Translations under genes and position numbers: made by a program
Assembly (NCBI RefSeq): GCF_001428505.1
Contig: NZ_LMHU01000012.1
Coordinates: 1 to 58,701, forward strand
Direction of reading: 5' to 3'
Source: Terrabacter sp. Root181
GTDB lineage: Bacteria > Actinomycetota > Actinomycetes > Actinomycetales > Dermatophilaceae
DNA length: 58,701 nt
The notes under the pieces: model-generated
Database searches by the model: none
The model's input: the letters and a program-made list of their open reading frames with translations, nothing else
Told to the model about the DNA's origin: nothing
Part shown: piece after piece, positions 2,968-54,583 of the stretch
Layout of the letters: every line of letters begins with the position of its first letter
How positions within the stretch are numbered: position 1 is the first letter of the stretch

Positions 2968-4005
2968 ATGCCGATCCGCTACCCCGCCCCGCTGCGCCCC
3001 GGCGACCGGATCGGCGTGACCTCGCCGAGCTCCGGCGTCTCCGACGCCCTCTGGGGGCGGTTCGCGTATGCCGTCCAGTGCCTCCGTGACCGCGGCTTCG
3101 AGATCGTCGTGGGCGAGCTCAACCACGCGCCCACCCACGTGAGCGGGCCGCGCGAGGCGCGCGCCGACGAGCTCATGTCGATGCTGCTCGACCCGAGCAT
3201 CCGCGCGGTCGTCCCGCCGTGGGGCGGCGAGACGGGCATCGACCTGCTCGACCTGCTCGACCTCGACGCGGTCTCGGCGGCCGAGCCGACGTGGTGCGTC
3301 GGCTTCTCCGACACGTCGACGTGGCTGACCCCGCTCACCCTGACCACGGGCATCGCGACGATCCACGGGCAGAACCTCATGGACACCCCGTTCGCCGTGC
3401 CGGACGGCATACTCCACTGGGTCGACGTCGCCTCCGCCGCCGCAGGTGCGGAGCTGCGCCAGCACTCCCCCGGGCGGCACCGCACCGGCGGCTGGGACGA
3501 CTACGCCGGCAACCCGACGGTCTCCGAGATGACCCTCGAGGGGCGCGGCACGTGGACGCGCATCGACCCGGGTCACGAGGACGAGCCGGCCAGCTTCTCG
3601 GGCCGCCTCGTCGCCGGCTGCGTCGAGACGGTGAGCTTCCTGGCCGGCGGGCGCTTCTCCGACATGGGTGCCTTCGCGCGGGACCACGCGCCCGAGGGCG
3701 TCGTCGTGCTCCTCGACATCTCCGAGTGGAGCTCCTACGACATCTGCCGGGCCCTGCACGCCATGCGCCTGCGCGGCTGGTTCGACGCCGCCACGGGCGT
3801 CCTCGTCTCACGCACCCATGCGCCCGAGCCGCACGGCTTCACCCAGCACGCGGCCGTCGTCGATGCGCTCGGGATGCTGGGCGTGCCGATCCTCGCCGAC
3901 GTCGAGTGCGGGCACGTGCAGCCGTTCCTCGCTCTCGTCCAGGGCGCCACGACCAGCGTGGTCCACGACGGGGACCTGCACGACGTCACGCAGCGCCTCT
4001 CCTGA
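2968..4005 (+). CDS. S66-family LD-carboxypeptidase / MccF-like peptidase
   Basis: About 345 residues. The N-terminus PLRPGDRIGVTSPSSG is typical of S66 peptidases, which trim murein tetrapeptides (LdcA) or inactivate microcin C-like peptidyl-nucleotides (MccF). The likely nucleophile is S114 in GFSDTS and the triad histidine H316 in ECGHVQPFLALVQG. The region where the family carries its catalytic Glu reads LLDISEWSSYD, with Asp250 apparently at the key site and Glu253 three residues on, so the triad may be altered. It starts 53 bp after metY with no clear ribosome site. ATG 2959 is an alternative start that adds three residues. Length and absence of a signal peptide suggest a cytosolic MccF-type role. 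Confidence 0.85.
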   Translation: MPIRYPAPLRPGDRIGVTSPSSGVSDALWGRFAYAVQCLRDRGFEIVVGELNHAPTHVSGPREARADELMSMLLDPSIRAVVPPWGGETGIDLLDLLDLDAVSAAEPTWCVGFSDTSTWLTPLTLTTGIATIHGQNLMDTPFAVPDGILHWVDVASAAAGAELRQHSPGRHRTGGWDDYAGNPTVSEMTLEGRGTWTRIDPGHEDEPASFSGRLVAGCVETVSFLAGGRFSDMGAFARDHAPEGVVVLLDISEWSSYDICRALHAMRLRGWFDAATGVLVSRTHAPEPHGFTQHAAVVDALGMLGVPILADVECGHVQPFLALVQGATTSVVHDGDLHDVTQRLS

Positions 4006-4023
4006 GACCGCCGACGGCTCGGC

Positions 4024-5928: not shown

Positions 5929-5959
5929 ACGGGTCGTGGTTGCGTCGGCCGTCCGCGCG

Positions 5960-7132
5960 TCAGGCGAAGAAGGTGCGCACCGCCGCGATGACGCGGTCCT
6001 GGTCGGCCTCGGTCAGCTCGGTCGCGCAGGGCAGCGAGAGGCCGCGGGCGAAGAGCCCGTCGCCGACCGCCCCACCGAGCAGCGGCGCCGACAGGAAGGG
6101 CGGCTGCGCGTGCAGCGGCCGCCACAAAGCCCGGGCCCCGACGCCGGCCCCGTTGAGGTGGGCCAGGAACTCGTCACGACCGCGCCCGTCGGCCTCTGGT
6201 ACGAGGACCGAGTAGAGCCAGTACGTCGCGTCGAGTCCCTCGACCCGCGGCGGCAGGACGAGCGGGAGGTCGGCGAACGCCGCGTCGTAGCGGGCCGCGA
6301 TGCGGTGCTTGGCGGAGACGAACTCGTCGAGCCGCTCGAGCTGGGCGAGCCCGAGCCCGGCAGCGATGTTGGTGAGCCGGTAGTTGTAGCCGACCTCGTC
6401 GTGGAGGTAGCCGACGTCAGGCACCTTCGCCTGGGTCGTGAGGTGACGGGCGCGTGCGGCGAGGTCGTCGTCGTCGGTGACGATCATGCCGCCACCGCCG
6501 GTGGTCGCGATCTTGTTGCCGTTGAAGGAGAAGCAGCCGATGCGGCCGACGGTGCCGGTGTGCCGCCCGGCGTAGGGACCGGACGTCCACGTCGCCCCGA
6601 GCGACTCCGCGGCGTCTTCGAGCACGGGTATGCCGTGTCGCTCGCAGGCGTCCATGAGCGGTCCCATGTCGGCGGGCTGCCCGAGCACGTGCACGACCTC
6701 GACGACGTTCGGCTGGGCCTCCCCCGCGGCGGCGCGGCGGTCGAGCTCGGCGGCGAGCAGGGCCGGGTCGATGTTCCACGTCGTCGTCTCGGCGTCGACG
6801 AGCACCGGGCGGGCGCCGCAGTAGGCGATCGGGTTGACCGAGCCGACGAAGGTGAAGTCGGAGCAGACGACGTCGTCGTCGCGCCCGACCCCGAGCAGGA
6901 GCAGGCCGATGTGGATCGCGGCCGTGCCGGTCGCGCAGGCGATGGCGTGCTTCGACCCGACCCGCGCGGCGAAGCGCCGCTCGAACTCCGAGACGAAGGG
7001 ACCGACGGACGAGACGAAGCCGGACTCCACGGCCTCGAGGACGTAGCGCCGCTCGAGCTCGCCGATGTTGGGCACCGCGAGCGGGATCGTCCCTTCGGGC
7101 CCGCGGGCTCCGGGAGCGTGGGCCTCGGTCAC
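5960..7132 (-). CDS. legC: LegC-like UDP/GDP-4-keto-sugar aminotransferase (DegT/DnrJ family)
   Basis: A 390-residue PLP aminotransferase of the DegT/DnrJ/EryC1 group. IPLAVPNIGELERRYV, GFVSSVGPFVSEFE and ACATGTAAIHIGLLLLGVG match the LegC subgroup. The Schiff-base lysine sits in SFNGNKIATTGGGGMIVT. It is expected to transaminate the 4-keto, 6-deoxy product of LegB to the 4-amino sugar in legionaminic acid synthesis. GTG 7132 is chosen because it overlaps the legB stop codon (GTGA); a longer open frame to 7636 lies antisense to nothing sensible and runs through legB. It is the last gene of the minus-strand sugar operon. Confidence 0.9.
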   Translation of the reverse strand: MTEAHAPGARGPEGTIPLAVPNIGELERRYVLEAVESGFVSSVGPFVSEFERRFAARVGSKHAIACATGTAAIHIGLLLLGVGRDDDVVCSDFTFVGSVNPIAYCGARPVLVDAETTTWNIDPALLAAELDRRAAAGEAQPNVVEVVHVLGQPADMGPLMDACERHGIPVLEDAAESLGATWTSGPYAGRHTGTVGRIGCFSFNGNKIATTGGGGMIVTDDDDLAARARHLTTQAKVPDVGYLHDEVGYNYRLTNIAAGLGLAQLERLDEFVSAKHRIAARYDAAFADLPLVLPPRVEGLDATYWLYSVLVPEADGRGRDEFLAHLNGAGVGARALWRPLHAQPPFLSAPLLGGAVGDGLFARGLSLPCATELTEADQDRVIAAVRTFFA

Positions 7133-8286
7133 CGGTGGTACCGCCCGGCGGTCTCGGGGTCGACGCGCGGCCGCAGCCACTCCGCCGTGGCCGACAGGCC
7201 CTCCTCGAGCGACACGGTGGGCGCCCAGCCGAGCACCTCGTTGGCGAGCGACGGGTCGGACAGCAGGATCTGCACCTCGGACCCCTCGGGGCGGATGCGG
7301 TCGCTCTCGGTGACGATCTCGGCGTCGCTGCCGGTGACCTTGCGGCACAGCTCGACGACGTCGCCGACCGAGACGGTGCGCCCGGTGCCGAGCTGGATCG
7401 TCGTGCCGGGCGCGACGTCGGCGAGGGCGGCGCGGACGAAGCCGTCGGCCGTGTCGGCCACGAAGGTGAAGTCGCGCTTGGGCGTGAGGTCGCCGAGCTT
7501 GAGCTGGCTCGCGCCCGCGAGCAGCTGGGACAGGACGGTCGGGATGACGGCGCGCGTGGACTGTCGGGGACCGAACGTGTTGAACGGGCGCAGCGTCGTC
7601 ACCGGCGTCTCGAAGGACAGGGCGTAGGACTCGCACATCTTGTCGGCCGAGATCTTCGTCGCCGAGTAGGGCGACTGGCCGCGCAGCGGGTGCGCCTCGG
7701 TGATCGGCACCGACTCCGGCGTGCCGTAGACCTCGGACGTCGACGTGTTGACCATCCGCGGTGTCCCGTGACGGCGGACGGCCTCGAGGACGTTGAGCGT
7801 GCCGATGACGTTGGTCTCGACGTAGGAGCGGGGAGCCACGTAGGAGAACGGGATCGCGATGAGGGCCGCCAGGTGGAGCACGACGTCGACGCCCTCGGTC
7901 GTGGCCATGACGTGCTCGGGGTCGCGGATGTCGCCGAGGACGACCTCGGCCTGCCCGTCGCGCACCGCGGCCTTGAAGACGTCGGACTCGTCGAGCCAGC
8001 CCGTCGACCCGTTGGAGTTGTAGAGGCAGAAGGCCCGCACGTGCGCCCCGTCGGCGACGAGCCGCTCGACGACGTGCGACCCGATGAAGCCGTCGGAGCC
8101 CGTGACGAGGACGGTCTTGCCGGCGACGGACCCCTCGACGGGCCTCGCGGTCAGCTCGATGTCGGGGACGTCAGCGTTGGTGCTCAGGCCGGAAAGTGTT
8201 GTCACAGCTGCCTTTTCGTCGTTCATGTGTGCTCGTATGCCGTCAGCCACGTCGTGCGCGTCGGTGCCGGTCACGGGGATGCTCAT
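7129..8286 (-). CDS. legB: LegB-like nucleotide-GlcNAc 4,6-dehydratase (extended SDR)
   Basis: An extended short-chain dehydrogenase of 385 residues. The NAD-binding motif TVLVTGSDGFIGSHVVE begins only near residue 58, the catalytic YSATK near residue 210, and PFNTFGPRQSTRAVIPT is typical of LegB. It should dehydrate NDP-GlcNAc to the 4-keto-6-deoxy sugar. ATG 8286 overlaps the stop of the upstream gene (ATGA), but it gives about 55 extra N-terminal residues compared with usual LegB. Internal starts (ATG at residue 21, or a GTG a few codons later behind an AAAAGG) are possible. The N-terminal stretch is less GC-rich than its surroundings. Confidence 0.88.
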   Translation of the reverse strand: MSIPVTGTDAHDVADGIRAHMNDEKAAVTTLSGLSTNADVPDIELTARPVEGSVAGKTVLVTGSDGFIGSHVVERLVADGAHVRAFCLYNSNGSTGWLDESDVFKAAVRDGQAEVVLGDIRDPEHVMATTEGVDVVLHLAALIAIPFSYVAPRSYVETNVIGTLNVLEAVRRHGTPRMVNTSTSEVYGTPESVPITEAHPLRGQSPYSATKISADKMCESYALSFETPVTTLRPFNTFGPRQSTRAVIPTVLSQLLAGASQLKLGDLTPKRDFTFVADTADGFVRAALADVAPGTTIQLGTGRTVSVGDVVELCRKVTGSDAEIVTESDRIRPEGSEVQILLSDPSLANEVLGWAPTVSLEEGLSATAEWLRPRVDPETAGRYHR

Positions 8287-9338
8287 GTCTCACCCTTCGC
8301 GCGGGCGAGGTCCTTGGGGGTGCCGACGTCGATCCAGTCGTTCTGGATCGGCCACGCCGTCACCGGCTCGTCGCGCTCGAGACACGTCTCGACGAGGCCC
8401 GGCATCGTGCTGGCCCGCCCGGTGGGCAGCCAGGCGAGCGCGCGGGGCTCGACGGCATACACGGCGGCGTTGATGTCGAAGCTCAGCGTCGGCTTCTCCG
8501 AGACGCCGGTGACGCGGCCGTCGGTGCTCTCGACGACACCGAAGGGCACCTCGTGCTGGTAGGTGCGGGTCGCGACGGTGACAGCGGCGCCGGTGCGCCG
8601 GTGCGCGTCGAGGAGGTCGCCCGCGTCGAACTCGACCATGAGGTCACCGTTCATGACGAGGACGGCGTGCTCGAGGTCGGGTCGCTCGTCGCGCAGGAGC
8701 GTCAGCGAGCCGGCGGTGCCGAGCGGGCGGTCGGGGTCCTCGCGCAGGTAGCGCACGGTGCACCCGAGACGCGAGCCGTCGCCGAGGTGCTCCTCGATCT
8801 GCTCGGCGAGGTAGTTGACGCTGACGTAGATCTCGCGGATGCCGTCACCGACGAGGCCCAGGACGATCCACTCGAGGATCGAGCGTCCCGCCACGGTCAT
8901 GAGCGGCTTCGGGGTGTCCTTGGTCAGGTCACCGAGGCGGGTGCCGCGGCCACCGGCCATGACGACGGCGACGTTGGGCAGCGGCGCCGACCCGACGACG
9001 TCGGAGAGCGTGTGCAGGCCCACGAGGGTGCGGTCGTCGGCGAGCTCGGGCACCGCCGAGATCCGCAGCGCCTGCATGAGGTCGAGCACGAGCGCCCGAG
9101 GCGACCCGGCCGCGACGAAGTGCGGGGTGCGGGTCGCGTGGTCGAGGGCGACGTCGTCGAGGCTCGTGCCCTTGAGGAAGGCACGGCGCAGGTCGCCGTC
9201 GGTGAGCAGCCCGGCGAGGCGGTTGTCGTCGTCGACGAGCAGGCACACGAGGTTGCCGCTGCGGTCGACGACCTCGAGGGCGTCCCGGATCGTCGCGGTG
9301 GTCGGCGCGCAGGCCGCGCGCAGGTCTCGCGCCGTCAC
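8283..9338 (-). CDS. ptmE: CBS-domain sugar-phosphate nucleotidyltransferase, PtmE-like
   Basis: 351 residues. Tandem CBS motifs occupy about residues 1-118 and a GlmU/RmlA-type nucleotidyltransferase the rest, starting VAVVMAGGRGTRLGDLTKDTPKPL. The same domain order is known for PtmE, the glucosamine-1-phosphate guanylyltransferase of the Campylobacter legionaminate route, so a GDP-activated amino sugar is the likely product. VLVMNGDLMVEFD carries the metal-binding Asp of the family. It has 4-bp overlaps with both neighbours (GTGA at 9335-9338, ATGA at 8283-8286), so it is translationally coupled. Substrate and nucleotide choice cannot be proven from sequence. Confidence 0.85.
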   Translation of the reverse strand: MTARDLRAACAPTTATIRDALEVVDRSGNLVCLLVDDDNRLAGLLTDGDLRRAFLKGTSLDDVALDHATRTPHFVAAGSPRALVLDLMQALRISAVPELADDRTLVGLHTLSDVVGSAPLPNVAVVMAGGRGTRLGDLTKDTPKPLMTVAGRSILEWIVLGLVGDGIREIYVSVNYLAEQIEEHLGDGSRLGCTVRYLREDPDRPLGTAGSLTLLRDERPDLEHAVLVMNGDLMVEFDAGDLLDAHRRTGAAVTVATRTYQHEVPFGVVESTDGRVTGVSEKPTLSFDINAAVYAVEPRALAWLPTGRASTMPGLVETCLERDEPVTAWPIQNDWIDVGTPKDLARAKGET

Positions 9339-10555
9339 TCCTCATCCTCCTCGTTCGTGTCGCCGTCCCACTGCCGGCCCGGAGTCGGCGCCGGCGCGAG
9401 GTCCACGAAGTGCTTGGACCGCGGGGCGAGCGCCGCTGTCCGAACGATATCGAGGATGGCGGCGCTGGCCGTACCCGTGCCGTAGGGGTTGGCGACGTGG
9501 GCCGAGTGCTCCCGCCACCGCGGGCTGAGGGCCGTGCCCAGCGCGGCCTCGACCGCGTCGCGCCCCTCTGCAGCGTGCACGACGTTGTCGCCCCGGAGGC
9601 GACCCCGCTGGCGCTCGCCGATGTCGACGGCGGGCACGTGCAGCGTCGCCGCCTCGATGACGCCCGAGCTCGAGTTGCCGACGACGACGTCGCTGGCGGC
9701 GAGGACGCGTGGGTAGTCCCGGCCCAGGGCGGCGACGAGTCGCAGCCGCGGCTCGCGCTCGGCGAGGGCGGTCAGCTCCGTGAGGATCTCGTCGCGTCCC
9801 TCGTCCATGCCCGGGTGGGTGGCGACGACCGTGCCGCACGTGGCCAGGACCGCCTCGGCCGCCTCTCGGGCCCACTCCCCGACCGGCGCGCCCCGCTGGG
9901 CGGTCGGCGGGTGGTAGGTGAAGAGCGCGAGCGGCCGCTCCACGGCCGTTCCGAGCAGCTCGCCGAGGTCGGCGTCGGAGATCGGCGACGCGGTCGCCAG
10001 CCGGTCGAGGCCGGGCGCCCCGGTCACGTGGACCCGGTCGGCCGGCTCGCCGAGCTGTCGCACTCGCGCCGCGGCGTCCTCGGACGCGACGCAGTGCTGG
10101 TCGGCGAGCTTGGTGACCGCGTGGCGGACCCGCTCGTCGAGCGCCCCCTCCGTCACCTCTCCCCCGTGCAGGTGCACGACCGGCACGCCGAGCAGGACGG
10201 CCGCGGGCACGACGTAGAGCAGCTCCCACCGGTCGCCGAGCACCACGAGGACGTCGACGTGCTCGTCGCGCAGCGCTCGGCCGGCGGCGCGGGCGAGCAC
10301 CGCGCCCTGCTCGAGCTGGGCGTCGACGGTCACCTCGGTCATCGGCTCGGCGAGCGGCACGACCGCCGCGCGCCACGCGTCCGCCGTGGCACTCGCGGGC
10401 AGGGCGGCGACGAGGTCGTCAGCGGCATACATGACCCCCGTCAGGACGCGCAGGGTCACGTCGTCGACCGACTGCAGCGCCTCGAGGACGGGCGACAGCG
10501 GTCCGAGGTCGGCGCGGGTGCCGACGAAGACGGCGACCGTGGGCAGAGGGGTCAT
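9335..10555 (-). CDS. legG: LegG-like hydrolysing UDP/NDP-sugar 2-epimerase (NeuC family)
   Basis: 406 residues with the UDP-GlcNAc 2-epimerase fold. VAVFVGTRADLGPLSPVLEAL opens the protein, VLVVLGDRWELL and VVHLHGGEVTEGALDERVRHAVTKLAD form the active-site region, and VVGNSSSGVIEAATL binds nucleotide. In the pathway it inverts C2 and releases the nucleotide, giving free 2,4-diacetamido-2,4,6-trideoxy-mannose for LegI. The acidic C-terminal tail (about 40 residues, ending DTNEEDEE) is longer than usual. It starts 8 bp after the legI stop codon and overlaps ptmE by 4 bp. Confidence 0.9.
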   Translation of the reverse strand: MTPLPTVAVFVGTRADLGPLSPVLEALQSVDDVTLRVLTGVMYAADDLVAALPASATADAWRAAVVPLAEPMTEVTVDAQLEQGAVLARAAGRALRDEHVDVLVVLGDRWELLYVVPAAVLLGVPVVHLHGGEVTEGALDERVRHAVTKLADQHCVASEDAAARVRQLGEPADRVHVTGAPGLDRLATASPISDADLGELLGTAVERPLALFTYHPPTAQRGAPVGEWAREAAEAVLATCGTVVATHPGMDEGRDEILTELTALAEREPRLRLVAALGRDYPRVLAASDVVVGNSSSGVIEAATLHVPAVDIGERQRGRLRGDNVVHAAEGRDAVEAALGTALSPRWREHSAHVANPYGTGTASAAILDIVRTAALAPRSKHFVDLAPAPTPGRQWDGDTNEEDEE

Positions 10556-10563: not shown

Positions 10564-11622
10564 TCAGCCGGCGAGGTCGGCGTCGGTCACGGGGGCCCCG
10601 GCCTCGACGGGACGGGCCAGGACGCGTCCGCGGATGTCGACGGCGGGGCTGACGCCGCCCTCGGGGCGCAGCAGCTGGAGGTCGGTGCCCGCGAGCTCGG
10701 TGCCGGCCGGCATCGCGCGCGCGGCGTGCCAGGAGCGACGCACGAGGACGGCGTTCTCCTCCTCAGACGGCATGCGCACCTTGACGCCGTCGCCGAGCGC
10801 GCGGGCGAGCTGCTTGGTCGTCGCGACGTACTCGGTGAGGGCCTCGGGCTCGAGGCTGGCGAGGTGGTCGGGTCCGGGCAGCGTGCGGTCGCTCGTGAAG
10901 TGCTTCTCGAGGATCGGCGCGCCGAGCGCCACGGCGCCGAGGGCCGTCGTGAGCCCGGGCGTGTGGTCGGACCACCCCACGGGTATGCCGTGCAGCTCGG
11001 TCAGGCGTGGGATGACCCGCAGGTTGCACTCCTCCACCGGCGCCGGGTAGGCCGACACGCAGTGGAAGAGGACGAGACCCGGCGCGTCGGCACAGGCCTC
11101 GACGGCCGCCTCGACCTCGTCCTGGGTGCCCATGCCGGTCGAGACGAGCAGCACCACGCCGAGCTGCGACATCTCGCGCAGGTAGGGCAGGTTCGTCAGC
11201 TCGCCCGAGCTCACCTTGAGCGCGGGCAGGCCGAGCTCGACGAGCATCTCGGCGCTGTCGAGGTCGAAGGGGGTCGACAGGAAGGTCGTGCTGGCCTCGG
11301 TCGCGTGGTCGCGCAGCTCGACCCAGGCCTCCTTGGGCAGGGTGAGCGCCTCGAGCAGGCTGCGCTGGTCGGTGCTGCCACCCCGGTCGCGCTGGTAGGG
11401 CGTCGTCGCCGCCGCCGACGAGACGAGCTTGTCGGGCGAGAACGTCTGGAACTTCACGGCGTCGGCGCCAGAGGCCACCGCGATGTCGACGAGGCGGTGC
11501 GCCAGGTCGATGTCGCCGTTGTGGTTCACGCCCGCCTCGGCGATGAGGTAGACGTCGCCGGGAGTGGGGACGTCGACGTCGCCGATCGCGACCGGCGTGA
11601 CGGCGTTCAGGTGGTCGCTCAT
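10564..11622 (-). CDS. legI: LegI-like N,N'-diacetyllegionaminate synthase (NeuB family)
   Basis: 352 residues. The NeuB TIM barrel begins VYLIAEAGVNHNGDIDLAHR with GADAVKFQTFSPDKLVSS next, closely following known LegI proteins. KVSSGELTNLPYL, FHCVSAYPAP and GWSDHTPG line the active site, and an antifreeze-like SAF domain fills the last 65 residues. It condenses phosphoenolpyruvate with the trideoxy-mannose made by LegG to form the nine-carbon acid, using a divalent metal. ATG 11622 overlaps the stop of the acetyltransferase gene (ATGA), so the two are translationally coupled. The NulO type (Leg rather than Pse or Neu) is inferred from the whole set of partners. Confidence 0.92.
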   Translation of the reverse strand: MSDHLNAVTPVAIGDVDVPTPGDVYLIAEAGVNHNGDIDLAHRLVDIAVASGADAVKFQTFSPDKLVSSAAATTPYQRDRGGSTDQRSLLEALTLPKEAWVELRDHATEASTTFLSTPFDLDSAEMLVELGLPALKVSSGELTNLPYLREMSQLGVVLLVSTGMGTQDEVEAAVEACADAPGLVLFHCVSAYPAPVEECNLRVIPRLTELHGIPVGWSDHTPGLTTALGAVALGAPILEKHFTSDRTLPGPDHLASLEPEALTEYVATTKQLARALGDGVKVRMPSEEENAVLVRRSWHAARAMPAGTELAGTDLQLLRPEGGVSPAVDIRGRVLARPVEAGAPVTDADLAG

Positions 11623-12302: not shown

Positions 12303-13720
12303 GTCAGGCCGTCCCGATGACCCAGCGACGCCGCGGCCTCGCCGAGCGCACCGCCGACCTTGCGGATGTTGTCGGGCTCCAGCACGGCGGGCACGCGTGG
12401 CGGGTCGAGCACCAGTCCCTCCCACGAGTTGCGCACGTAGCCGTGGACGAACCACTCGTCGATCGAGGCCTGGTCGGCACGCAGCGACTCCCAGCCGCGG
12501 TCGGCGACGAACTGCGTCAGGTCGTCGGGCGAGTCGAGCCGGGCCACGTTGCCCAGGCCGCTCCAGGGCATCTCGGCCCCGGTGACGACCGGCAGCCCGA
12601 GCAGCCCCGCCTCGAGACCGACCGTGCCGGTCGCGGTGACGGTGAAGACCGCCTGCTTCATCAGCTCACGGGAGTCGGCGAACGGGTCGATCGTCGCGAT
12701 GTTGGGGTGCGCGTCGAACTGCGGCCAGTAGTCGGGGTCACGCCGCCACATGAAGTGCGCGTGCTCCTTGACGGCGACGCCGATGTCGAGCGGCGCGAGC
12801 GCGTCGGCGAGGACGCGTGCGGTGTAGGCCTGGTCGCGCCACTCCTGGCCCATGACGTCGGCGCTCGACTCCGGCTGCACCTGCAGCGGCAGGAAGACGA
12901 ACTTCTCCGGCACCGGGTCCCAGCGTCGGTCCTGGTACTCGCGCAGGTTGAGGCGGGCCTTGACGGGGTTGAGCCACGGCAGCCGCGCGTAGTCGGAGGG
13001 CCGTGGCAGCTGGAGGTTCGCGCCCCGGTCGACGGCGAACTCCTTGATGCGGTCGCTCGCGAGGCGCCAGATCTCCTGGCCGTTCTCGACCTGCAGGTTG
13101 CGGGCGAAGCCCATCGGGCGCCCGTGCTCGGCCCGCCACGTGTCGATGAACGCCTGGCCCGCTGCCACCGCCGACGGGTCCTCGACCTGCCGCTCCCACA
13201 GGGTGATCCCCTTGGGCGCGCCGATGAGGCCGAAGCGGTCGGACGGGAGGCGGATGCCGCGTGGCCAGGTCGCGAGGCCGCCGTGGTGGGTCACGAGGCC
13301 CGCCGTGAGCAGCTCGGAGGTCACGGTGAACTCGACGAGGGCGAGCACGGGACCGCGACCCTCGATGGCCGCCTCGAGCTCCTCGGCGGCGAGGTTGAGG
13401 AAGTTCATCGCGGTGTCGACGCGGTTGCGGCGCAGCGCCCGCTCCGACACGAGCAGGTCGAGCGGGTCGAGGCCGACGCCGGCACAGGCCCGCTTGAGAG
13501 CCGCGTGGGGCGCGAGGCCACTGACGACGTTGGCCTTGCGCGCTGCGGCATACGGCAGCCGGACGGTCGTGGCACGCGGCGCGTGCTTGCGCACCCACGC
13601 GAGGTTGGCGTCCGTCCGCACGACGAGCACGAGGTCCTTCGTCTCGAAGCCGGCGTGCACGAGGGCCGGCACGAGGAGGTCGTCGTAGCCCAACCCCATG
13701 TGGACGAGCGGTGTCACCAC
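12299..13720 (-). CDS. Capsule-type glycosyltransferase (PF05159-like), probable legionaminate transferase
   Basis: 473 residues, no signal peptide or membrane helix. The C-terminal half resembles the capsule polysaccharide biosynthesis (KpsC/KpsS) fold, with VAVKEHAHFMW near residue 330 and the nucleotide-site motif FTVTATGTVGLEAGLLGLPVV near residue 380. By position inside a legionaminate operon, between flippase and synthesis genes, it is the best candidate for the transferase that moves CMP-legionaminate onto a lipid or wall acceptor. The family call rests on the TGTxGxEa motif and general layout, so a different GT-B family is possible. GTG 13720 has AGGAG 10 nt upstream. Confidence 0.65.
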   Translation of the reverse strand: MVTPLVHMGLGYDDLLVPALVHAGFETKDLVLVVRTDANLAWVRKHAPRATTVRLPYAAARKANVVSGLAPHAALKRACAGVGLDPLDLLVSERALRRNRVDTAMNFLNLAAEELEAAIEGRGPVLALVEFTVTSELLTAGLVTHHGGLATWPRGIRLPSDRFGLIGAPKGITLWERQVEDPSAVAAGQAFIDTWRAEHGRPMGFARNLQVENGQEIWRLASDRIKEFAVDRGANLQLPRPSDYARLPWLNPVKARLNLREYQDRRWDPVPEKFVFLPLQVQPESSADVMGQEWRDQAYTARVLADALAPLDIGVAVKEHAHFMWRRDPDYWPQFDAHPNIATIDPFADSRELMKQAVFTVTATGTVGLEAGLLGLPVVTGAEMPWSGLGNVARLDSPDDLTQFVADRGWESLRADQASIDEWFVHGYVRNSWEGLVLDPPRVPAVLEPDNIRKVGGALGEAAASLGHRDGLT

Positions 13721-13783: not shown

Positions 13784-15220
13784 CTATCCGCGCAGCGTGC
13801 GCAGGATCCGCGGCGCGACGGCCACGGCCGCCGCCCCGACGAGGACGGTGAGGGCGACCCGCACCCACGCGGCCGGTCCGTCCAGCGGCAGCACGGCACC
13901 GACGAGCGCGAGGGCGACGCCGGCGAGCGCCACCGCGGCCACCCGGGGAGGCCACCGCAGCGGCGAGTGGGTCCGGGCGAACCACGTCGTCAGCGCCATG
14001 AGCACGACGTAGCCGGCGGCCTTCGCGATGGCCACGCCGACGACCCCGCCCGTCGAGCCGGCCCGTGGGGCGAGCCACAGGGCGACGAGGACGAGCACGG
14101 CGAGTGCCACGAGGGCAGCCCACGCGAGCCGGCCGGTGCGCTCCGCGTCGAGCACGGCCAGCGAGGAGCCCTGGTAGAGCATGTACGACACCGAGACGGT
14201 GCAGATGACGCCGAGCGCGCCGACCATCGCGACGTGGTCGAAGCCGGGGTCGGCCATGACGGCGACGAGCCAGGGCCCGAGCAGCGCCACCCCGGCCGCT
14301 CCCGCGGCGACGACCGTCGTCAGCGCGGTGCCGGTCCGGGCGGTCCAGGCCCAGCGGCGCTCCAGGGGGTGGGAGAGCACGAGGGGACCCCACGCGTTGA
14401 AGAGGGCGACCGCGAGGACGAAGGGCATGTTCCCGAGCTGGAGGGCCACCTGGTAGCTGCCGGCGCCGGCCTCCCCGACGAGGATGCGGGCGAGCAGGAC
14501 GTCCCCCGAGAGCAGCCCGAGCATCGCGGCCGCCTGCGGCAGGAGCGGCGTCGCCAGGCGGATGCCGGCCCGCACGCGCTCGCGCTCGACGGTGGGCGGC
14601 AGCGGACGGCCGAGCACGAGGGCGACGACGGCGGCGAGCACGACGACGACGGCGTATGCCGTCAGGTACGTCTCCGCGGTCGGCTCGGTGCGCGAGGCGA
14701 GCAGTCCCGCGAGCTGCGCGCCGACGGTCGCGAGCACGGCGAGCGCGAGGAACCCCCACGGCTGCAGCCGGGCCCGCATCAGGGTCTGGCCGGCCACGAC
14801 GGTCGTCAGCGCGACCGCGGCGACGACGAGCGGCACCCACTGTCCGAGGTCGGCGTGCCCGGTGGCGGACAGGACGAGCGCGAGCAGCAGACCGACGACA
14901 CCGAGACCGAGGGCGAGCAGCACCATCGTCCCGGCCAGCGCCCTCGCGACCCGCGGACCTTCGGCGCCGCGGTGGTGCTCGCGGAGCACGACCTGGGGCA
15001 GGCCCGCCGCGGCGATGGTGCCCACCATCTGCACGACCACGAGACCCGTTGCCACCCGGCCGAACTCGACGGCCCCGAGCACCCGGGTGGCGAAGGGCAG
15101 CACGAGGAGCACGCCGAGGCCCTGCAGGGCCGTGCCCACGAGGTAGACCACCGAGTGCGCCCCGAGCGACGCGCCGGGACGGCCGGCGGTGGGCGCGGGG
15201 CTTCCGGGCGGGCTCGTCAC
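13784..15220 (-). CDS. Wzx-like oligosaccharide flippase (MATE/MOP superfamily)
   Basis: About 478 residues, nearly all hydrophobic, with 12-14 predicted helices. The first is around SVVYLVGTALQGLGVLLVLP and the last pairs are VAAVALAGVALALVGAVLPL and VALTVLVGAAAVAVAPRILR. The pattern fits the polysaccharide transport (Wzx) branch that flips undecaprenyl-linked glycans. It is first in the minus-strand operon and divergent from the Gfo/Idh gene (gap about 90 bp). GTG 15220 (MTSPPGSPAP) is preferred; GTG 15247 adds nine residues. No Wzy polymerase or ligase is visible nearby, so a short unit may be flipped. Confidence 0.82.
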   Translation of the reverse strand: MTSPPGSPAPTAGRPGASLGAHSVVYLVGTALQGLGVLLVLPFATRVLGAVEFGRVATGLVVVQMVGTIAAAGLPQVVLREHHRGAEGPRVARALAGTMVLLALGLGVVGLLLALVLSATGHADLGQWVPLVVAAVALTTVVAGQTLMRARLQPWGFLALAVLATVGAQLAGLLASRTEPTAETYLTAYAVVVVLAAVVALVLGRPLPPTVERERVRAGIRLATPLLPQAAAMLGLLSGDVLLARILVGEAGAGSYQVALQLGNMPFVLAVALFNAWGPLVLSHPLERRWAWTARTGTALTTVVAAGAAGVALLGPWLVAVMADPGFDHVAMVGALGVICTVSVSYMLYQGSSLAVLDAERTGRLAWAALVALAVLVLVALWLAPRAGSTGGVVGVAIAKAAGYVVLMALTTWFARTHSPLRWPPRVAAVALAGVALALVGAVLPLDGPAAWVRVALTVLVGAAAVAVAPRILRTLRG

Positions 15221-20285: not shown

Positions 20286-20350
20286 CCGAGGCCGTATGCC
20301 GGCCGCCACGGTCCCACGGTCGCCCGCGGCGGGTGTGGGGCGGGGTGGGC

Positions 20351-25506: not shown

Positions 25507-25526
25507 ACGAAGGTCTCCTTCTGGGG

Positions 25527-42019: not shown

Positions 42020-42532
42020 TCAGCGCGAGCGCGGGCGGATGCTCACGAGGTGGGAGACGACGCCCGGGACCCAGCCGGTCTCACCGCGCATCCACCGGGC
42101 GCCGACGAGGTTGTGCGGCACGACCACGGTGTCGGCACGTGCAGCCACGAGACCGAGGTCGGTGCCGAAGACGTCGGTGACGATCGCCCAGTCACGCGCG
42201 CTGTGGCGCGCGAGGTGCTCGCCGATGGCGACGGCATACGTCTCGACGACGATGTCCGGCCCCTCGCCCGAACCGCCCGCGTCGGCCCAGCGGCGGTAGG
42301 CCGCGTCGTAGTGCGCGCCGATGGACGCGAGGTCGTCGACGTCCACCCCGTCATCCGTCGCGTGCTCGAGGGCCGCGGTGATGCGCGCGCGCTCCTCGTC
42401 ACCGAGCGGCACCGCGACCGGCCGTCCGGTGAAGTCGGCGGCAAGGGCGTCGTCGGCGTCCTCGTCGACCGTGGGGGCCGCGCCCGCCGGCTCGTCGGTG
42501 TCGTCCTTGCCCTTGCGCGAGAACAGTCCCAT
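42020..42532 (-). CDS. DUF3806 domain protein
   Basis: 170 residues, soluble. A charged linker (about 1-38) precedes the DUF3806-like core: DDLASIGAHYDAAYRRWADA, DIVVETYAVAIGEHLARHS and WAIVTDVFGTDLGLVA. The function of the family is unknown. ATG 42532 is preferred to an upstream TTG because TAGATT lies 7 nt before it. It stands alone between tryptophan dioxygenase and an aldo/keto reductase on the same strand, each with its own -10 box. Confidence 0.75.
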   Translation of the reverse strand: MGLFSRKGKDDTDEPAGAAPTVDEDADDALAADFTGRPVAVPLGDEERARITAALEHATDDGVDVDDLASIGAHYDAAYRRWADAGGSGEGPDIVVETYAVAIGEHLARHSARDWAIVTDVFGTDLGLVAARADTVVVPHNLVGARWMRGETGWVPGVVSHLVSIRPRSR

Positions 42533-43532: not shown

Positions 43533-45317
43533 ATGGCATCCATCAGCAAGGTACTGATCGCAAACCGTGGTGAGATCGCCGTCCGCATCGCGCGGGCGTG
43601 CGCGGACAGCGGGATCGCCTCGGTCGCCGTCTACGCCGAGCCTGACCGGGATGCCTTGCACGTCAAGGTCGCCGACGAGGCGTACGCCCTCGGGGGCTCG
43701 ACCCCCGGCGAGAGCTACCTCGTCCAGGAGAAGCTGCTCGACATCGCCCGTCAGGCGGGCGCCGACGCGGTCCACCCCGGCTACGGCTTCCTCGCCGAGA
43801 ACGCCTCGTTCGCGCAGGCGGTCATCGACGCCGGCCTGATCTGGATCGGCCCCGGCCCCCAGGCGATCGACTCCCTCGGCGACAAGGTCAAGGCGCGCCA
43901 CATCGCCACGAAGGCCGGCGCGCCACTCGTGCCCGGCACGAAGGACCCCGTCTCGGGAGCCGACGAGGTCGTCGAGTTCGCGAAGGAGCACGGCCTCCCC
44001 GTCGCGATCAAGGCGGCCTACGGCGGCGGCGGCCGCGGCCTCAAGGTCGCCCGCGCCATGGAGGAGATCCCCGACCTCTACGACTCGGCGGTCCGCGAGG
44101 CCGTGACGGCCTTCGGCCGCGGCGAGTGCTTCGTCGAGCGCTTCCTCGACCACCCCCGCCACGTCGAGACCCAGTGCCTGGCCGACCAGCACGGCAACGT
44201 CGTCGTCGTGTCGACGCGCGACTGCTCGCTCCAGCGCCGCAACCAGAAGCTCGTCGAGGAGGCGCCCGCACCGTTCCTCTCCGAGGCGCAGCACACCGAG
44301 CTGCTCCGCGCGAGCAAGGCGATCCTCAAGGAGGCCGGATACGTCGGAGCCGGCACGTGCGAGTTCCTCGTCGGCCCGGCCGGCGACATCAGCTTCCTCG
44401 AGGTCAACACCCGTCTGCAGGTCGAGCACCCCGTGACCGAGGAGGTCACCGGCATCGACCTCGTGCGGGAGCAGTTCCGCATCGCGAACGGCGAGTCCCT
44501 CGACTACGGCGACCCCGAGCCGCACGCCCACTCGATCGAGTTCCGCATCAACGGCGAGGACGCCGGCCGCGGCTTCCTGCCGGCACCGGGGACCGTCAGC
44601 CGCATGGTCGTCCCGCAGGGTCCCGGTGTGCGCTGGGACGCCGGCCTCGTCGAGGGCGACACCGTCGCCGGCGCCTTCGACTCGATGATCGCCAAGCTCG
44701 TCATCACCGGCCGCACCCGTGAGCAGGCCATCGAGCGGTCGCGCCGGGCCCTGGCCGAGCTCACCATCGAGGGCATGCCGACCGTCGTGCCGTTCCACCG
44801 GGCCGTCGTCGCCGACCCGGCCTTCGCGCCGGCCGACGGTGCGCCCTTCACGATCCACACCCGTTGGATCGAGACCGAGTTCGACAACACGATCGAGGCG
44901 TATGCCGGTGGGTCGGCCGACGCGGCCGAGGCCGAGGAGCGCCAGACCGTCGTCGTCGAGGTCGGGGGCAAGCGCCTCGAGGTCTCGCTCCCGGGCGGTC
45001 TGTCGCTCGGCGGCGGCGGGAGTGCGTCTGCGGCCAAGAAGAAGGCGCCCAAGAGGTCCGGTGGCGGCAAGTCCGGGGGCGCGGCCTCCGGCGACTCCCT
45101 CACCGCCCCGATGCAGGGCACGATCGTCAAGATCGCCGTCGAGGAGGGCGCGACCGTCGCGGCGGGCGACCTCGTCATCGTCCTGGAGGCGATGAAGATG
45201 GAGCAGCCCATCACCGCCCACAAGGCCGGCGTCGTGTCGGGCCTCACCGCGAAGGTCGGCGAGACCGTCACGTCGGGTGCCGTGCTCGCCGAGATCACCG
45301 ACGTCGCCGAGGGCTGA
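43533..45317 (+). CDS. Acyl-CoA carboxylase alpha subunit (biotin carboxylase + BCCP), AccA3-like
   Basis: 594 residues. Biotin carboxylase spans about 1-450: [20 protein letters not shown], the ATP-grasp loop [33 protein letters not shown] and the active-site [12 protein letters not shown] Lys/Gly/Ser-rich hinge ([15 protein letters not shown]) joins it to the C-terminal biotinyl domain with [17 protein letters not shown], whose Lys is biotinylated by BirA. It supplies carboxybiotin to AccD partners such as those at 27.6 and 35.0 kb. It stands alone in its transcription unit and ends at a strong terminator. Confidence 0.95.
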
Positions 45318-46284: not shown

Positions 46285-46374
46285 GCAGCCGCCGACACGG
46301 TATGCCGTCCGGCCGGGTCGGTCGTCCCGCGTCGGACGTCTGCTCACCCCGGGACGGCGCGGCCTCGGTCGAGG

Positions 46375-47778: not shown

Positions 47779-47841
47779 GGGACCATCCAACCATCCCTCG
47801 GACGGGCGTCCGACCGCCCGGCGACCGGGCGGAGCCGGCCG

Positions 47842-48018: not shown

Positions 48019-48036
48019 GGTGGACCTCCTGAAGGT

Positions 48037-48067: not shown

Positions 48068-48141
48068 ACACCGTCCGAGCCGCCACACATTCCCGGCTAC
48101 CCTCGGTGTGACGACTCCCACTCGTGCGACAGGCAGGACCG

Positions 48142-48783: not shown

Positions 48784-48785
48784 GC

Positions 48786-49619: not shown

Positions 49620-51304
49620 TGACGACCATCGACACCACCGAGACGCTGTATGCCGCGGCGCGGGCCTGGCGCGACGACGACCCCGACCCGACGACGCGGG
49701 CCGAGCTCGACGCCGTCCTCGGCAGGGCGACGGCGGGCGACGCGGACGCAGCCGCCGACCTCGCCGACCGCATGGCCGGACTGCTCGAGTTCGGCACCGC
49801 CGGGCTGCGCGGGGCCCTCGGCGCCGGCCCCAACCGGATGAACCGCAGCGTCGTCATCCGAGCGGCGGCCGGCCTGACGGCATACCTCAAGGACGAGGGG
49901 CGCGCCGGCGACGCGCCGACGGTCGTCGTCGGCTACGACGCGCGCTACAACTCGGACGTCTTCGCCCGCGACACCGCCGCCGTGGTCGTCGCGGCCGGCG
50001 GCCGGGCGCTGCTGCTGCCCCAGCCCCTTCCGACGCCGGTCCTCGCCTTCGCGATCCGTCACCTCGGCGCCGATGCCGGCGTCATGGTGACGGCGAGCCA
50101 CAACCCGCCGCAGGACAACGGCTACAAGGTCTACCTCGGCGACGGCAGCCAGATCGTGCCGCCCGCCGACGCCCGGATCGCCGCCCACATCGGCCGCGTC
50201 GAGCGGGTGGCCGACGTGCCGCGCGCCGCCGATGGCTGGGAGATGCTGGGCGACAACCTCCTCGAGGACTACGTCGACGCCGTCGTCGGCGTCGTCGACC
50301 CGAGCTCGCCGCGCGACCTCCGCGTCGTCCACACGAGCCTGCACGGCGTCGGTCACGGCACGGTGCACACCGCCTTCGTCCAGGCCGGCTTCGCGGCGCC
50401 GGTCGTCGTCGACGAGCAGGCCGTACCCGACCCGGACTTCCCGACCGTCGCGTTCCCCAACCCCGAGGAGAAGGGCGCGATCGACCTCGCGCTGGCCCGA
50501 GCCCGCGCCGTCGGGTGCGACCTCGTCATCGCCAACGACCCGGACGCCGACCGGTGCGCTGCGGCCGTGCTCGACCCGGCCCTCGGCGACTGGCGGATGC
50601 TGCGCGGCGACGAGGTGGGGGCGCTCCTCGGTGCCCACATCGTCCGGCGTGGCGTCTCGCGCCGCGACGTCTTCGCCAACTCGATCGTGTCCTCGCGCCT
50701 GCTCGCGTCGATCGCGAAGGCCGCCGGACTCGCCCACGAGGAGACGCTCACCGGCTTCAAGTGGATCTCCCGCGTCGACCGGCTGCGCTACGGCTACGAG
50801 GAGGCGCTCGGCTACTGCGTCGCGCCGCAGCTCGTCCGCGACAAGGACGGCGTCAGCGCCGCCCTGCTGCTCGCCGAGCTCGCAGCCACCCTCAAGGCAC
50901 AGGGGCGCACGCTCATCGACCAGCTCGACGACCTCGCCGTCGAGCACGGCGTGCACGCGACCGACTCGTTCTCGGTGCGCGTCTCGGACCTCGCCCAGAT
51001 CGACACCCTGATGGGGCGCCTTCGCGCCGAGCCGCCGGCCTCGGTGGCCGGCGTGGAGGTCGACCGCATCGACGACCTCGCCCGGGGCGACGGCGGGCTG
51101 CCGCCCACCGAGGGCCTGCGCTACCACCTCGTCGACCGCTCCCGCGTCATCGTGCGCCCGAGCGGCACCGAGCCCAAGGTGAAGGTCTACCTCGAGGTCA
51201 TCGAGCCGGTCGCCGGTCCGGCGGCCCTCGGCGAGTCACGCGCGCTCGCCGAGACCCGGCTCGCCCGCGTCCGGGCCGACATGGAACGCCTCACGTCTCT
51301 CTGA
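49619..51304 (+). CDS. Phosphohexomutase/phosphopentomutase (alpha-D-phosphohexomutase family)
   Basis: 561 residues. LEFGTAGLRGALGAGPNRMN, the phosphoserine loop VMVTASHNPPQDNGYKVYLG, metal loop IANDPDADRCAAAVLD, sugar loop with KWISRVDRLRYGYEEALGYC, and the phosphate-binding VIVRPSGTEPKVKVYLEV. Such long forms act on glucose, mannose or ribose phosphates. Coupling to pnp (TGATG) suggests it turns (deoxy)ribose-1-phosphate into the 5-phosphate, feeding deoC downstream. ATG 49619. Confidence 0.92.
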   Translation: MTTIDTTETLYAAARAWRDDDPDPTTRAELDAVLGRATAGDADAAADLADRMAGLLEFGTAGLRGALGAGPNRMNRSVVIRAAAGLTAYLKDEGRAGDAPTVVVGYDARYNSDVFARDTAAVVVAAGGRALLLPQPLPTPVLAFAIRHLGADAGVMVTASHNPPQDNGYKVYLGDGSQIVPPADARIAAHIGRVERVADVPRAADGWEMLGDNLLEDYVDAVVGVVDPSSPRDLRVVHTSLHGVGHGTVHTAFVQAGFAAPVVVDEQAVPDPDFPTVAFPNPEEKGAIDLALARARAVGCDLVIANDPDADRCAAAVLDPALGDWRMLRGDEVGALLGAHIVRRGVSRRDVFANSIVSSRLLASIAKAAGLAHEETLTGFKWISRVDRLRYGYEEALGYCVAPQLVRDKDGVSAALLLAELAATLKAQGRTLIDQLDDLAVEHGVHATDSFSVRVSDLAQIDTLMGRLRAEPPASVAGVEVDRIDDLARGDGGLPPTEGLRYHLVDRSRVIVRPSGTEPKVKVYLEVIEPVAGPAALGESRALAETRLARVRADMERLTSL

Positions 51305-51309
51305 GGGAG

Positions 51310-51345
51310 CCCCACGCGTACGCCATCGACGGCGTACGCGTGGGG
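51310..51345. terminator. Bidirectional terminator after the phosphomutase gene
   Basis: Perfect 15-bp stem ccccacgcgtacgcc (51310-51324) with complement at 51331-51345 and loop atcgac, 6 bp after the stop codon and between convergent genes. Confidence 0.85.
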
Positions 51346-51364
51346 CAGGGTGAGCGGCAGCCCG

Positions 51365-52018: not shown

Positions 52019-52073
52019 GGACCGACTCTCTCACGCGTGACGGGCCGTCTCGATAGGTGGATAGACTCCCGTG

Positions 52074-53060: not shown

Positions 53061-53110
53061 CCGCGACTGACCGACCGCGCCACACGACAGCGCCCACGAA
53101 AGACACCCTG

Positions 53111-54583
53111 ATGCCGAAGTTCGAGTACGCCCCCGCGCCGGAGTCGCGCGCCATCGTCACGATCGAGAAGTCCTACGGGCTCTTCATCGACGGCGCCTTC
53201 ACGCGCCCCAAGGCGACCTTCCCCACGCTCAACCCCGCCGACGAGACGGTCCTCGCCGAGGTGAGCCAGGCCGGCCCCAAGGACGTCGACAAGGCGGTCG
53301 CTGCGGCTCGCCGCGCCTATGAGGGCGTCTGGGGTCGCATGAGCGGCGCCGAGCGCGGCAAGTACCTCTTCCGCATCGCCCGCATCCTCCAGGAGCGGGC
53401 CCGTGAGTTCGCCGTGCTCGAGACGCTCGACAACGGCAAGCCGATCAAGGAGACCCGCGACGTCGACGTCCCGGTCGCCGCGGCGCACTTCTTCTACCAC
53501 GCGGGCTGGGCCGACAAGCTGGAGTATGCCGGCCTGTCCGCCTCGGGCGCCGACGTGCCGCGCCCGCACGGCGTGGTCGGCCAGGTCATCCCGTGGAACT
53601 TCCCGCTGCTCATGCTCGCGTGGAAGATCGCCCCGGCCCTCGCGACGGGCAACACCGTCGTGCTCAAGCCCGCCGAGACGACACCGCTATCGGCCCTGCT
53701 CTTCGCCGAGGTCTGCCAGCAGGCCGAGCTGCCCGCCGGCGTCGTCAACATCATCACCGGAGACGGCCGCACGGGTCAGGCCCTCGTCGAGCACCCCGAC
53801 GTCGACAAGATCGCCTTCACCGGCTCGACCGAGGTCGGCAAGGCGATCGCCCGGACCATCGCCGGCACGTCGAAGAAGGCCACGCTCGAGCTCGGCGGCA
53901 AGGCCGCGAACATCGTCTTCGACGACGCCCCGCTCGACCAGGCCGTCGAGGGCATCGTCAACGGCATCTTCTTCAACCAGGGCCAGGTGTGCTGCGCCGG
54001 CTCGCGCCTGCTCGTGCAGGAGAACGTCCACGACCAGGTCGTCGCGAAGCTCAAGCGTCGTCTCGGCACGCTGCGCGTCGGTGACCCGATGGACAAGAAC
54101 AGCGACCTCGGCGCGATCAACAGCAAGGCGCAGCTCGACCGCATCACCTCGCTCGTCGAGGCAGGCGTCGCCGAGGGTGCCGAGCGCTGGAGCCCCGAGT
54201 GCACCCTGCCGGCCAAGGGCTACTGGTTCCCGCCGACGGTGCTCACGGGCGTCTCGCAGACGCACCGTGTCGCGACCGAGGAGATCTTCGGCCCGGTCCT
54301 GTCCGTGCTGACCTTCCGCACACCGCAGGAGGCGGTCGCCAAGGCCAACAACACGGCGTACGGCCTCTCGGCCGGCGTCTGGACCGAGAAGGGCTCGCGC
54401 ATCCTCTGGATGGCCGACCAGCTCAAGGCCGGCGTGGTCTGGGCCAACACCTTCAACCGCTTCGACCCGACGTCGCCGTTCGGTGGCTACAAGGAGTCGG
54501 GCTATGGCCGCGAGGGCGGCCGCCACGGCCTCGAGGCCTACGTCACCACCGCCCCTTCGACCCTGACGGGAGCCGCCCGATGA
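53111..54583 (+). CDS. Aldehyde dehydrogenase
   Basis: 490 residues, complete NAD(P)-dependent ALDH. Catalytic Glu in ATLELGGKAANIVFDDA, catalytic Cys in NQGQVCCAGSRLLVQE, Asn in GVVGQVIPWNFPLLML, and the C-terminal SPFGGYKESGYGREGG. In this position after deoC it probably oxidises acetaldehyde, or handles the pair of products, in deoxyribose breakdown. ATG 53111 starts 50 bp after deoC. Its stop overlaps the start of the second ALDH gene (ATGA). Confidence 0.93.
   Translation: MPKFEYAPAPESRAIVTIEKSYGLFIDGAFTRPKATFPTLNPADETVLAEVSQAGPKDVDKAVAAARRAYEGVWGRMSGAERGKYLFRIARILQERAREFAVLETLDNGKPIKETRDVDVPVAAAHFFYHAGWADKLEYAGLSASGADVPRPHGVVGQVIPWNFPLLMLAWKIAPALATGNTVVLKPAETTPLSALLFAEVCQQAELPAGVVNIITGDGRTGQALVEHPDVDKIAFTGSTEVGKAIARTIAGTSKKATLELGGKAANIVFDDAPLDQAVEGIVNGIFFNQGQVCCAGSRLLVQENVHDQVVAKLKRRLGTLRVGDPMDKNSDLGAINSKAQLDRITSLVEAGVAEGAERWSPECTLPAKGYWFPPTVLTGVSQTHRVATEEIFGPVLSVLTFRTPQEAVAKANNTAYGLSAGVWTEKGSRILWMADQLKAGVVWANTFNRFDPTSPFGGYKESGYGREGGRHGLEAYVTTAPSTLTGAAR

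Follow-up and report, generated by a model that had tools for sequence, protein, structure and literature searches.

A family-specific iterated octamer in Terrabacter whose copies are spaced according to orientation: a possible self-DNA signal

Introduction

Why should one exact eight-letter word recur, on both strands and in every reading frame, along a stretch of an actinobacterial genome? The question is raised by a window of 58,701 nt from Terrabacter sp. Root181 (NZ_LMHU01000012.1 of assembly GCF_001428505.1, positions 1-58,701), the whole stretch of DNA from which this analysis starts, and in which a first-pass annotation had noticed an excess of the octamer GTATGCCG. The iteration of this word, its exactness, its conservation, its restriction to one family, the existence of dialects and the spacing of its copies according to their orientation are established here, and they tentatively point to a signal by which these bacteria would recognise their own DNA. 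To our knowledge, iterated self-recognition words occur in few lineages (uptake sequences, Chi, HIP1, the highly iterated palindrome), and the present one would be the first of this kind in Actinobacteria.

An exact word in large excess over the genome

An exact-word count finds 26 copies of GTATGCCG in the window, 15 on the plus strand and 11 on the minus strand, against 0.72 expected from dinucleotide shuffles (maximum 3 among 100), 0.86 under a second-order model and 1.9 from base composition alone; the two or so copies that the annotation had expected from GC content match the value for composition, and the other models give less than one. The recount returns the numbers announced, 26 octamers among 27 GTATGCC, and the same places, except that the minus-strand coordinates given at first mark GGCATAC, shifted rightwards by one base from CGGCATAC. 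The remaining GTATGCC, the 27th (18104, minus strand), is GTATGCCA and not the octamer. Of the 32 GTATG pentamers of the window, the heptamer accounts for 27 and the octamer for 26.

The excess is not local. Indeed, the complete genome (4,939,208 bases, 12 contigs) carries 1135 + 1096 = 2,231 copies, far over the 124 + 126 = 250 copies of the same letters reversed, and its density of 0.45 per kb predicts 26.5 copies for a window that holds 26. A count over the genome close to expectation, which the annotation had named as refuting its observation, is thus not what is found. The density reaches 1.29 per kb in the analysed stretches of G167 and G100. A third-order model that masks the word expects 3.2 copies in 348,558 bases of the Terrabacter genome (including two small all-N contigs, 2,559 bases), which hold 146 (46-fold); five other motif-bearing genomes of the family (270,015 bases) hold 281 against 2.4 (119-fold), whereas five motif-less genomes of the family (326,096 bases) hold 2 against 1.2. 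The hundreds to thousands of exact copies, far over expectation, that characterise uptake sequences are thus found here. Among the papers listed from the open-licence PMC literature, no title or abstract opening describes GTATGCCG or an over-represented GTATGCC. The palindrome ATCGCGAT is likewise over-represented in the Terrabacter stretches (60 against 9.8, both strands counted).

All eight positions are required and the constraint acts on DNA

No one-letter neighbour of GTATGCCG exceeds about 4-fold expectation, and those near 4-fold have counts of at most 10: all eight positions of the octamer are required. Summed, these neighbours number 284 against 191 expected in the Terrabacter genome, 174 against 136 in the five other motif-bearing genomes and 188 against 139 in the motif-less ones. 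As the sums are similar with and without the word, there is no clear halo of decayed copies; nor is any abundant one-letter neighbour markedly more depleted than in the motif-less genomes. The base 3' of the octamer is favoured as T (51%) and avoided as A (1%) in the Terrabacter genome.

Alignments to the window were obtained for seven congeners, with 85-91% identity and, for G170, a length of just 15.5 kb; copies falling in alignment gaps were treated as lost. The octamer is perfectly conserved at 22/26, 21/26, 21/26, 20/24, 15/26, 19/26 and 6/7 places, whereas 8-mers of the same composition are conserved in fractions of 0.60, 0.60, 0.60, 0.54, 0.44, 0.51 and 0.48 in the respective congeners and one-mismatch neighbours in fractions of 0.30-0.55. 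The comparison with relatives that the first-pass annotation had proposed therefore shows that the word is kept above matched 8-mers. The 27 single-letter differences found at homologous sites affect positions 1, 2, 3, 4, 6 and 8 and are of eleven kinds, which speaks against any single mutation or repair reaction as the origin of the word.

In the predicted genes of six genomes (simple G+C-frame method), 175 copies lie in sense and 124 in antisense orientation, and all six frames are represented, G-TAT-GCC-G being the commonest (147 copies). A further 128 copies lie outside predicted genes, that is 30.0% of copies for 25.7% of bases. The deciles of gene length hold 41, 41, 26, 29, 24, 26, 24, 29, 26 and 33 copies, a raw count, taken without control, which indicates some excess at gene ends. 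The use of six frames together with the conservation in congeners shows that it is the DNA, rather than the protein, that is constrained, as the first-pass annotation had proposed from the variety of frames.

Range within the family and dialects of other genera

Among 186 genomes of the family, probably the Intrasporangiaceae/Dermatophilaceae group, from 53 genera, 106 carry at least 400 copies of GTATGCCG, 14 carry 150-399 and 66 fewer; in the 106 high-count genomes these copies outnumber the reversed control by a factor of 2.5 to 70, the lowest value being that of G041, whose control is high as well. A scan of the order covered 327 genomes, 27 of them from the family. The 300 genomes of 19 other families lie near the reversed control, the largest count being 180 (G477, control 195), and a few genomes with fewer than 100 copies reach 3-4 times the control (table read by eye). 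The octamer is specific to the family, a point that goes beyond the earlier annotation. Genomes without it also occur inside motif-bearing genera, namely G084 (g33), G114 (g42) and G008 (g4), which are possible cases of natural loss useful for finding a reader gene. Within the Terrabacter genome, the 27-kb contig C2 (L019-L020) is depleted (2 copies against 12.3 expected); it has a lower GC content and carries IS110-type transposases, an FtsK/SpoIIIE-like ATPase and a SIR2-like domain protein.

Several genera at background or intermediate counts of GTATGCCG carry other iterated words, as estimated in sampled stretches from third-order or fourth-order models. Most are near variants, the dialect words, which differ from it by one or two letters: GGATGCCG, GTACGCC, GTATGCGG, CGATGCGG and GTACGRCG. 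Thus, GGATGCCG occurs 81 times against 23.5 expected in 100 kb of G178 and 40 times against 5.7 in 60 kb of G017, CGATGCGG 76 times against 14.4 in 80 kb of G083, and GTATGCGG 22 times against 1.7 in 60 kb of G025, where GTATGCG is also frequent (40 against 5.1). In 80 kb each, GTACGCCG reaches 40 against 9.4 in G002, CGAAGGGGG 52 against 3.1 in G055, CGAAGGGG 83 against 10.1 in G092, and GTACGCC 102 against 32.9 in G090 and 79 against 21.6 in G014; G084 has GTACGACGCC (36 against 3.2) and GTACGGCGTC (23 against 2.5) in 140 kb. The GTAC-type words are weaker than the other dialect words. No clear iterated word was found in G161 (160 kb), G184 (100 kb), G114 (66 kb) or G008 (80 kb), nor in single 17-20 kb stretches of G001, G011, G015, G019, G021, G022, G038, G068, G069, G081, G096, G099 and G154.

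Alignments of loci of G000 and its congeners with loci of G017 (about 15 kb summed, repeated alignments possibly being counted twice or more) contain one homologous GTATGCCG/GGATGCCG place, which suggests that copies of the two dialects mostly lie at different places. The corresponding alignments with G178 cover just 3.4 kb, containing no GTATGCCG.

Three observations stand apart. The word CGAAGGGG(G) is strongly iterated, without strand bias, in two genera, g27 (G055, L055-L058) and g36 (G092, L136, L152-L154); it does not look related to GTATGCCG and could represent a system of its own. RecC is present in 3/3 genomes of g36 and in 15/16 of g27. In 80 kb of G014 (L123, L143-L145), GTATCGAGA reaches 11 copies where 0.2 would be expected, either as an unrelated repeat or as a second word. 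Lastly, the Actinomycetes metagenome-assembled genome RYN_140 (L193, L217, L225, L232, L235) gives several AAGTGCGGT...ACCGCACTT matches, each spanning 48 bases, which probably belong to a family of short dispersed repeats.

Mutual avoidance of copies in the same orientation

The placement of the octamer depends on its orientation. In six motif-bearing genomes (427 copies, 618,573 bases), adjacent copies are in opposite orientation 258 times and in the same orientation 137 times. At distances of 100-1000 bp, same-orientation pairs number 87 against 161 expected and opposite pairs 173 against 176; the excess of opposite neighbours therefore arises because copies in the same orientation avoid each other over a limited distance. 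In the Terrabacter genome this avoidance seems to extend to 1.5 kb (9 against 14.6 at 1000-1500 bp). When orientations were shuffled on fixed positions, none of 2000 shuffles gave as few same-orientation pairs (mean 124.4, sd 7.7), and the copies of each stretch are divided between the strands more evenly than chance would give (chi-square 8.0 on 27). Compared with 100 8-mers of similar number from the same DNA, itself included, the word ranks first on all three measures, the fraction of same-orientation pairs being 0.335 for a mean of 0.529 (sd 0.051). Convergent pairs closer than 100 bp are enriched 2.2- to 2.8-fold, which is compatible with hairpin terminators.

Avoidance between same-orientation copies up to about 1 kb is a new observation, and the rule can be computed for any iterated motif. 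It also changes what is to be made of the absence of strong strand bias reported at first: the counts are indeed even, but this evenness is an active balance, in which copies of the same orientation avoid each other and copies of opposite orientation do not. The rejection of a signal of the KOPS type (FtsK-orienting polar sequences) gains from it, since the strand balance of stretches is tighter than chance; a KOPS or any replication-polarised signal is discarded on 48 plus and 48 minus copies in C1:1-200000 and on balanced stretches, the replication arms not being mapped.

Several dialect words share the tendency. The ratio of opposite to same-orientation neighbours is 60/16 in G178, 45/27 in G083, 23/14 in G017, 33/15 in G055 and 26/11 for GTATGCG of G025; it is 47/21 for GTACGGCG of G084, 44/30 for GTACGACG, 29/20 for CGTACGCC of G014, and 24/19 and 56/42 for GTACGCC in G002 and G090. 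The lean of GTATGCGG of G025 is weak (11/8).

Candidate reader genes

The Terrabacter genome carries adjacent genes encoding ComEA (HHH_3, SLBB) and ComEC (Competence, metallo-beta-lactamase), five matches to PF00437 (T2SSE-type) ATPases, and two genes in tandem whose products match chains A and B of the helicase-nuclease structures 6ppj, 6ppr, 6ppu, 7sjr and 9np6, which we take to be mycobacterial AdnAB. No match to PilM (PF11104), RecC or Vsr was found in it. PilM is absent from 179 of the 186 family genomes and present in 7 (ComP itself was not searched), and Vsr occurs in 71 of the 186 with no visible relation to the motif. In Micrococcus luteus, which has comEA and comEC, transformation is described in the part of the source cited as requiring Tad-type Flp pili (PMC6370729).

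None of these genes singles out the motif-bearing genomes. The PF00437 ATPase, present in 185/186, does not discriminate; neither does ComEC, which 180/186 genomes of the family have, as do all 30 genomes of a panel with six motif-less members; AdnA is found in the same 30/30. As a determinant of the dialect, AdnA finds no support in four sequences, in which G178 and G000 fall together (31 residues against 11 and 12) despite their different dialects, without any excess of AdnA residues marking the dialect split. ComEA is uninformative, with 6 residues following the dialect pattern against 6 and 9 for two other patterns. Three known machineries were also set aside for this genome: that of the DNA uptake sequences (DUS) of Neisseria, as the genome has no PilM; RecBCD-Chi, as it has no RecC and RecC presence cuts across motif presence; and a product of Vsr-type very short patch repair, as it has no Vsr.

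A directional signal for self-DNA?

Two processes would fit these properties: DNA could be imported and recombined directionally as a single strand during transformation, or a helicase-nuclease could be controlled in a Chi-like way as it translocates. For both, the orientation rule adds evidence of another kind. Among the functions that the annotation had envisaged, an uptake-like sequence and a repair or recombination site remain the likelier ones.

The first process is the one that we tentatively favour: GTATGCCG could well mark self-DNA in a strand-specific way for directional import and recombination, as an analogue of uptake sequences in a Gram-positive family, with a hypothetical reader protein. 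Such a protein would recognise the short word in one orientation on one strand, most likely during natural transformation. Single-stranded DNA would be imported via ComEA/ComEC, the directional reader selecting the strand and the direction of import, so that plus and minus copies would serve opposite strands. A second copy in the same orientation within one tract of import or recombination (about 1 kb) would add little. From placement by orientation, we infer a directional reader whose benefit would saturate within about 1 kb per strand, this spacing reflecting a tract length. The number of copies would rise through selection or through accumulation driven by transformation, as for the uptake sequences of Neisseriaceae and Pasteurellaceae, and a shift in reader specificity would give rise to a new dialect.

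The density of the word, its on/off pattern over the family, its dialects, the lack of local strand bias and the same-orientation spacing support this uptake reading, together with close convergent pairs, the gene-end excess, the depletion on contig C2, the ComEA-ComEC pair and the PF00437 ATPases. The patchy range, the dialects, the evenness of strands, the gene-end excess and the inverted pairs account for the likeness to uptake sequences, and the orientation rule resembles the behaviour expected of Chi. Dialects have been described for uptake sequences of the Neisseriaceae type (PMC3630211, in the part cited), and a gene-end excess is reported for those of Pasteurellaceae in the cited part of PMC2346458. 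It may well be, though it is far from assured, that the family has a genome-wide DNA recognition code of its own, which does not derive from the Neisseriaceae or Pasteurellaceae uptake sequences and is read strand by strand from marks mostly at least about 1 kb apart per strand, with genus-specific dialects able to switch completely between close genera. If the code serves uptake, transformation and its species barriers would become testable in a large group of bacteria.

Several points weigh against an uptake signal. The genome lacks the PilM of type IVa pili, and it is on pili of this class that the Neisseria receptor is carried; as motif-less genomes have ComEC, no tested competence gene follows the motif. 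No excess of opposite neighbours is seen for CGAAGGGG in G092 (41/38), GTACGCCG in G002 (17/19) or GTACGACGCC in G084 (12/17). Orientation is reported to have no influence on uptake in Haemophilus influenzae, according to the cited part of PMC1939737. Furthermore, a control was run on the uptake signal sequences (USS) of Pasteurellaceae, starting from at least 120 loci of an inverted-pair scan, of which 10 were dropped by title (80 titles available) and 9 for having at most 2 copies; the finder pairs were masked and 101 loci remain. Over these 101 loci, USS show no orientation rule beyond 200 bp, same-orientation pairs at 200-1000 bp numbering 114 against 109 expected and opposite ones 105 against 116. 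Indifference to orientation beyond close pairs, a criterion drawn from this control and not a published definition, is therefore not found for GTATGCCG. Below 200 bp, USS do differ by orientation (same 9 against 28.0 expected, opposite 47 against 29.7; neighbours opposite 169, same 133), so that the short-range part of the pattern is common to USS and GTATGCCG.

Other explanations

The main rival, unlikely but to be taken seriously, is that GTATGCCG is the Chi of AdnAB, read on one strand during unwinding and switching the enzyme from degradation to recombination. Each break end would need one correctly oriented copy, which would make same-orientation neighbours redundant, and a directional reader of this type predicts spacing between same-orientation copies only. 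AdnA and AdnB are encoded in tandem in a genome without RecC, and CGAAGGGG, in the two RecC-bearing genera g27 and g36, is G-rich like known Chi. The mechanism of a Chi-like step of AdnAB is called unclear in the cited part of a 2026 paper (PMC13309787); the octamer, if it were this Chi, would bear on the regulation of AdnAB. However, stretches show no polarity and are more balanced than chance, AdnA is equally present in the motif-less panel genomes, the dialect does not follow the tree of the four AdnA sequences, and the 46- to 119-fold enrichment exceeds the level usual for Chi.

A mark for chromosome organisation or DNA transfer, read by a directional DNA pump or a nucleoid protein, is quite improbable. 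Pumps of the FtsK type do read non-palindromic 8-mers directionally, and CGAAGGGG of g27 and g36 resembles KOPS-like words, but GTATGCCG has no strand polarity, and its counts stay close to background both in the 300 genomes sampled from other families of the order and in entire genera of its own family, an absence that would be odd for a core chromosome function.

It is also very doubtful that the octamer is an iterated word linked to methylation or repair in the manner of HIP1, that is, a methyltransferase target created and maintained by biased repair. HIP1 is also highly iterated, with alternate words in some lineages and matching methyltransferases (PMC4390886, in the part cited). GTATGCCG, however, is not palindromic; the many kinds of single changes and the lack of a markedly depleted neighbour reveal no single repair reaction, and Vsr, missing from the genome, bears no visible relation to the motif in the family.

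That the word arises as a side effect of base composition, codon usage or repeats can be dismissed as next to impossible. In favour of the idea, 147 of the 175 sense-orientation coding copies share the frame G-TAT-GCC-G, and a few motif-bearing genomes have high counts of the reversed control as well (lowest ratio 2.5, G041). However, the genome-wide counts against this control refute it, shuffled and second-order expectations for the window are below one, copies occupy all six frames as well as DNA outside predicted genes, flanks vary between copies, and the word is missing from some near relatives and from the order's other families.

The copies of the window and their genes

The fraction of aligned congeners that keep each copy is given in brackets. 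On the plus strand, copies lie at 3066..3073 (5/5), 6628..6635 (6/6), 8235..8242 (4/6, one miss being an alignment gap), 10983..10990 (5/6), 14654..14661 (5/6), 17464..17471 (4/6), 20294..20301 (3/6), 29854..29861 in a protein kinase gene (5/6), 31627..31634 (5/6), 33995..34002 (1/6, kept in G171, the other five having C or G at position 4), 39352..39359 (3/6), 44900..44907 (6/7), 46300..46307 (4/7, two misses being alignment gaps), 49648..49655 in a phosphoglucomutase gene (6/7) and 53524..53531 in an aldehyde dehydrogenase gene (7/7). The minus strand carries those at 3405..3412 (4/5), 8453..8460 (5/6), 10423..10430 (6/6), 13546..13553 (6/6), 19233..19240 (2/6), 25501..25508 (5/6), 27450..27457 (4/6), 31983..31990 (4/6), 41430..41437 in a tryptophan dioxygenase gene (7/7), 42232..42239 (5/7) and 49878..49885 (7/7), the last in the same phosphoglucomutase gene as the copy at 49648.

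Ten genes of the window were checked; nine contain the octamer and nine have a Pfam match, with ordinary functions, those bearing the octamer including the protein kinase, tryptophan dioxygenase, phosphoglucomutase and aldehyde dehydrogenase genes. With regard to the annotation's legC and legI, a nucleotidyl transferase with a CBS domain (PF00483, PF00571) at 8283-9338 and an epimerase (PF02350) at 9335-10555 would fit a nonulosonate locus.

Comparison with known systems

KOPS and the related SRS (SpoIIIE recognition sequences) and AIMS (architecture imparting sequences) are non-palindromic octamers spread over the whole chromosome and strand-polarised, whereas the strand balance of GTATGCCG is tighter than chance. 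The HIP1 and alternate HIP words share with it a very high iteration, a patchy range and alternate words in some lineages. Unlike it, they are palindromes tied to methyltransferases (PMC4390886), while GTATGCCG is oriented and its placement depends on orientation.

The Chi sites of RecBCD and AddAB are closer, as exact, short, non-palindromic and conserved words whose orientation matters. Unlike them, GTATGCCG has no strand polarity, its genome has no RecC, its dialect is independent of the AdnA tree and its enrichment is stronger than usual for Chi. Known properties of Chi include leading-strand polarity and over-representation in the core genome (PMC8022716, in the part cited). By the published criterion of leading-strand polarity, for which the balance of stretches stands here with the arms unmapped, GTATGCCG is not Chi.

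With DUS and USS, whose density is similar, the octamer shares hundreds to thousands of exact non-palindromic copies, on both strands alike, genus dialects, some close inverted pairs and some gene-end excess, and it is scarce on one mobile contig. The ComEA/ComEC machinery is likewise present in its genome, though motif-less relatives also have ComEC. It differs from both in its Gram-positive host group, from DUS in a genome without the PilM of type IVa pili, and from USS in a spacing restricted to same-orientation copies over about 1 kb, which USS do not show beyond 200 bp. GTATGCCG is best filed in the wider known class of iterated genome-wide recognition words.

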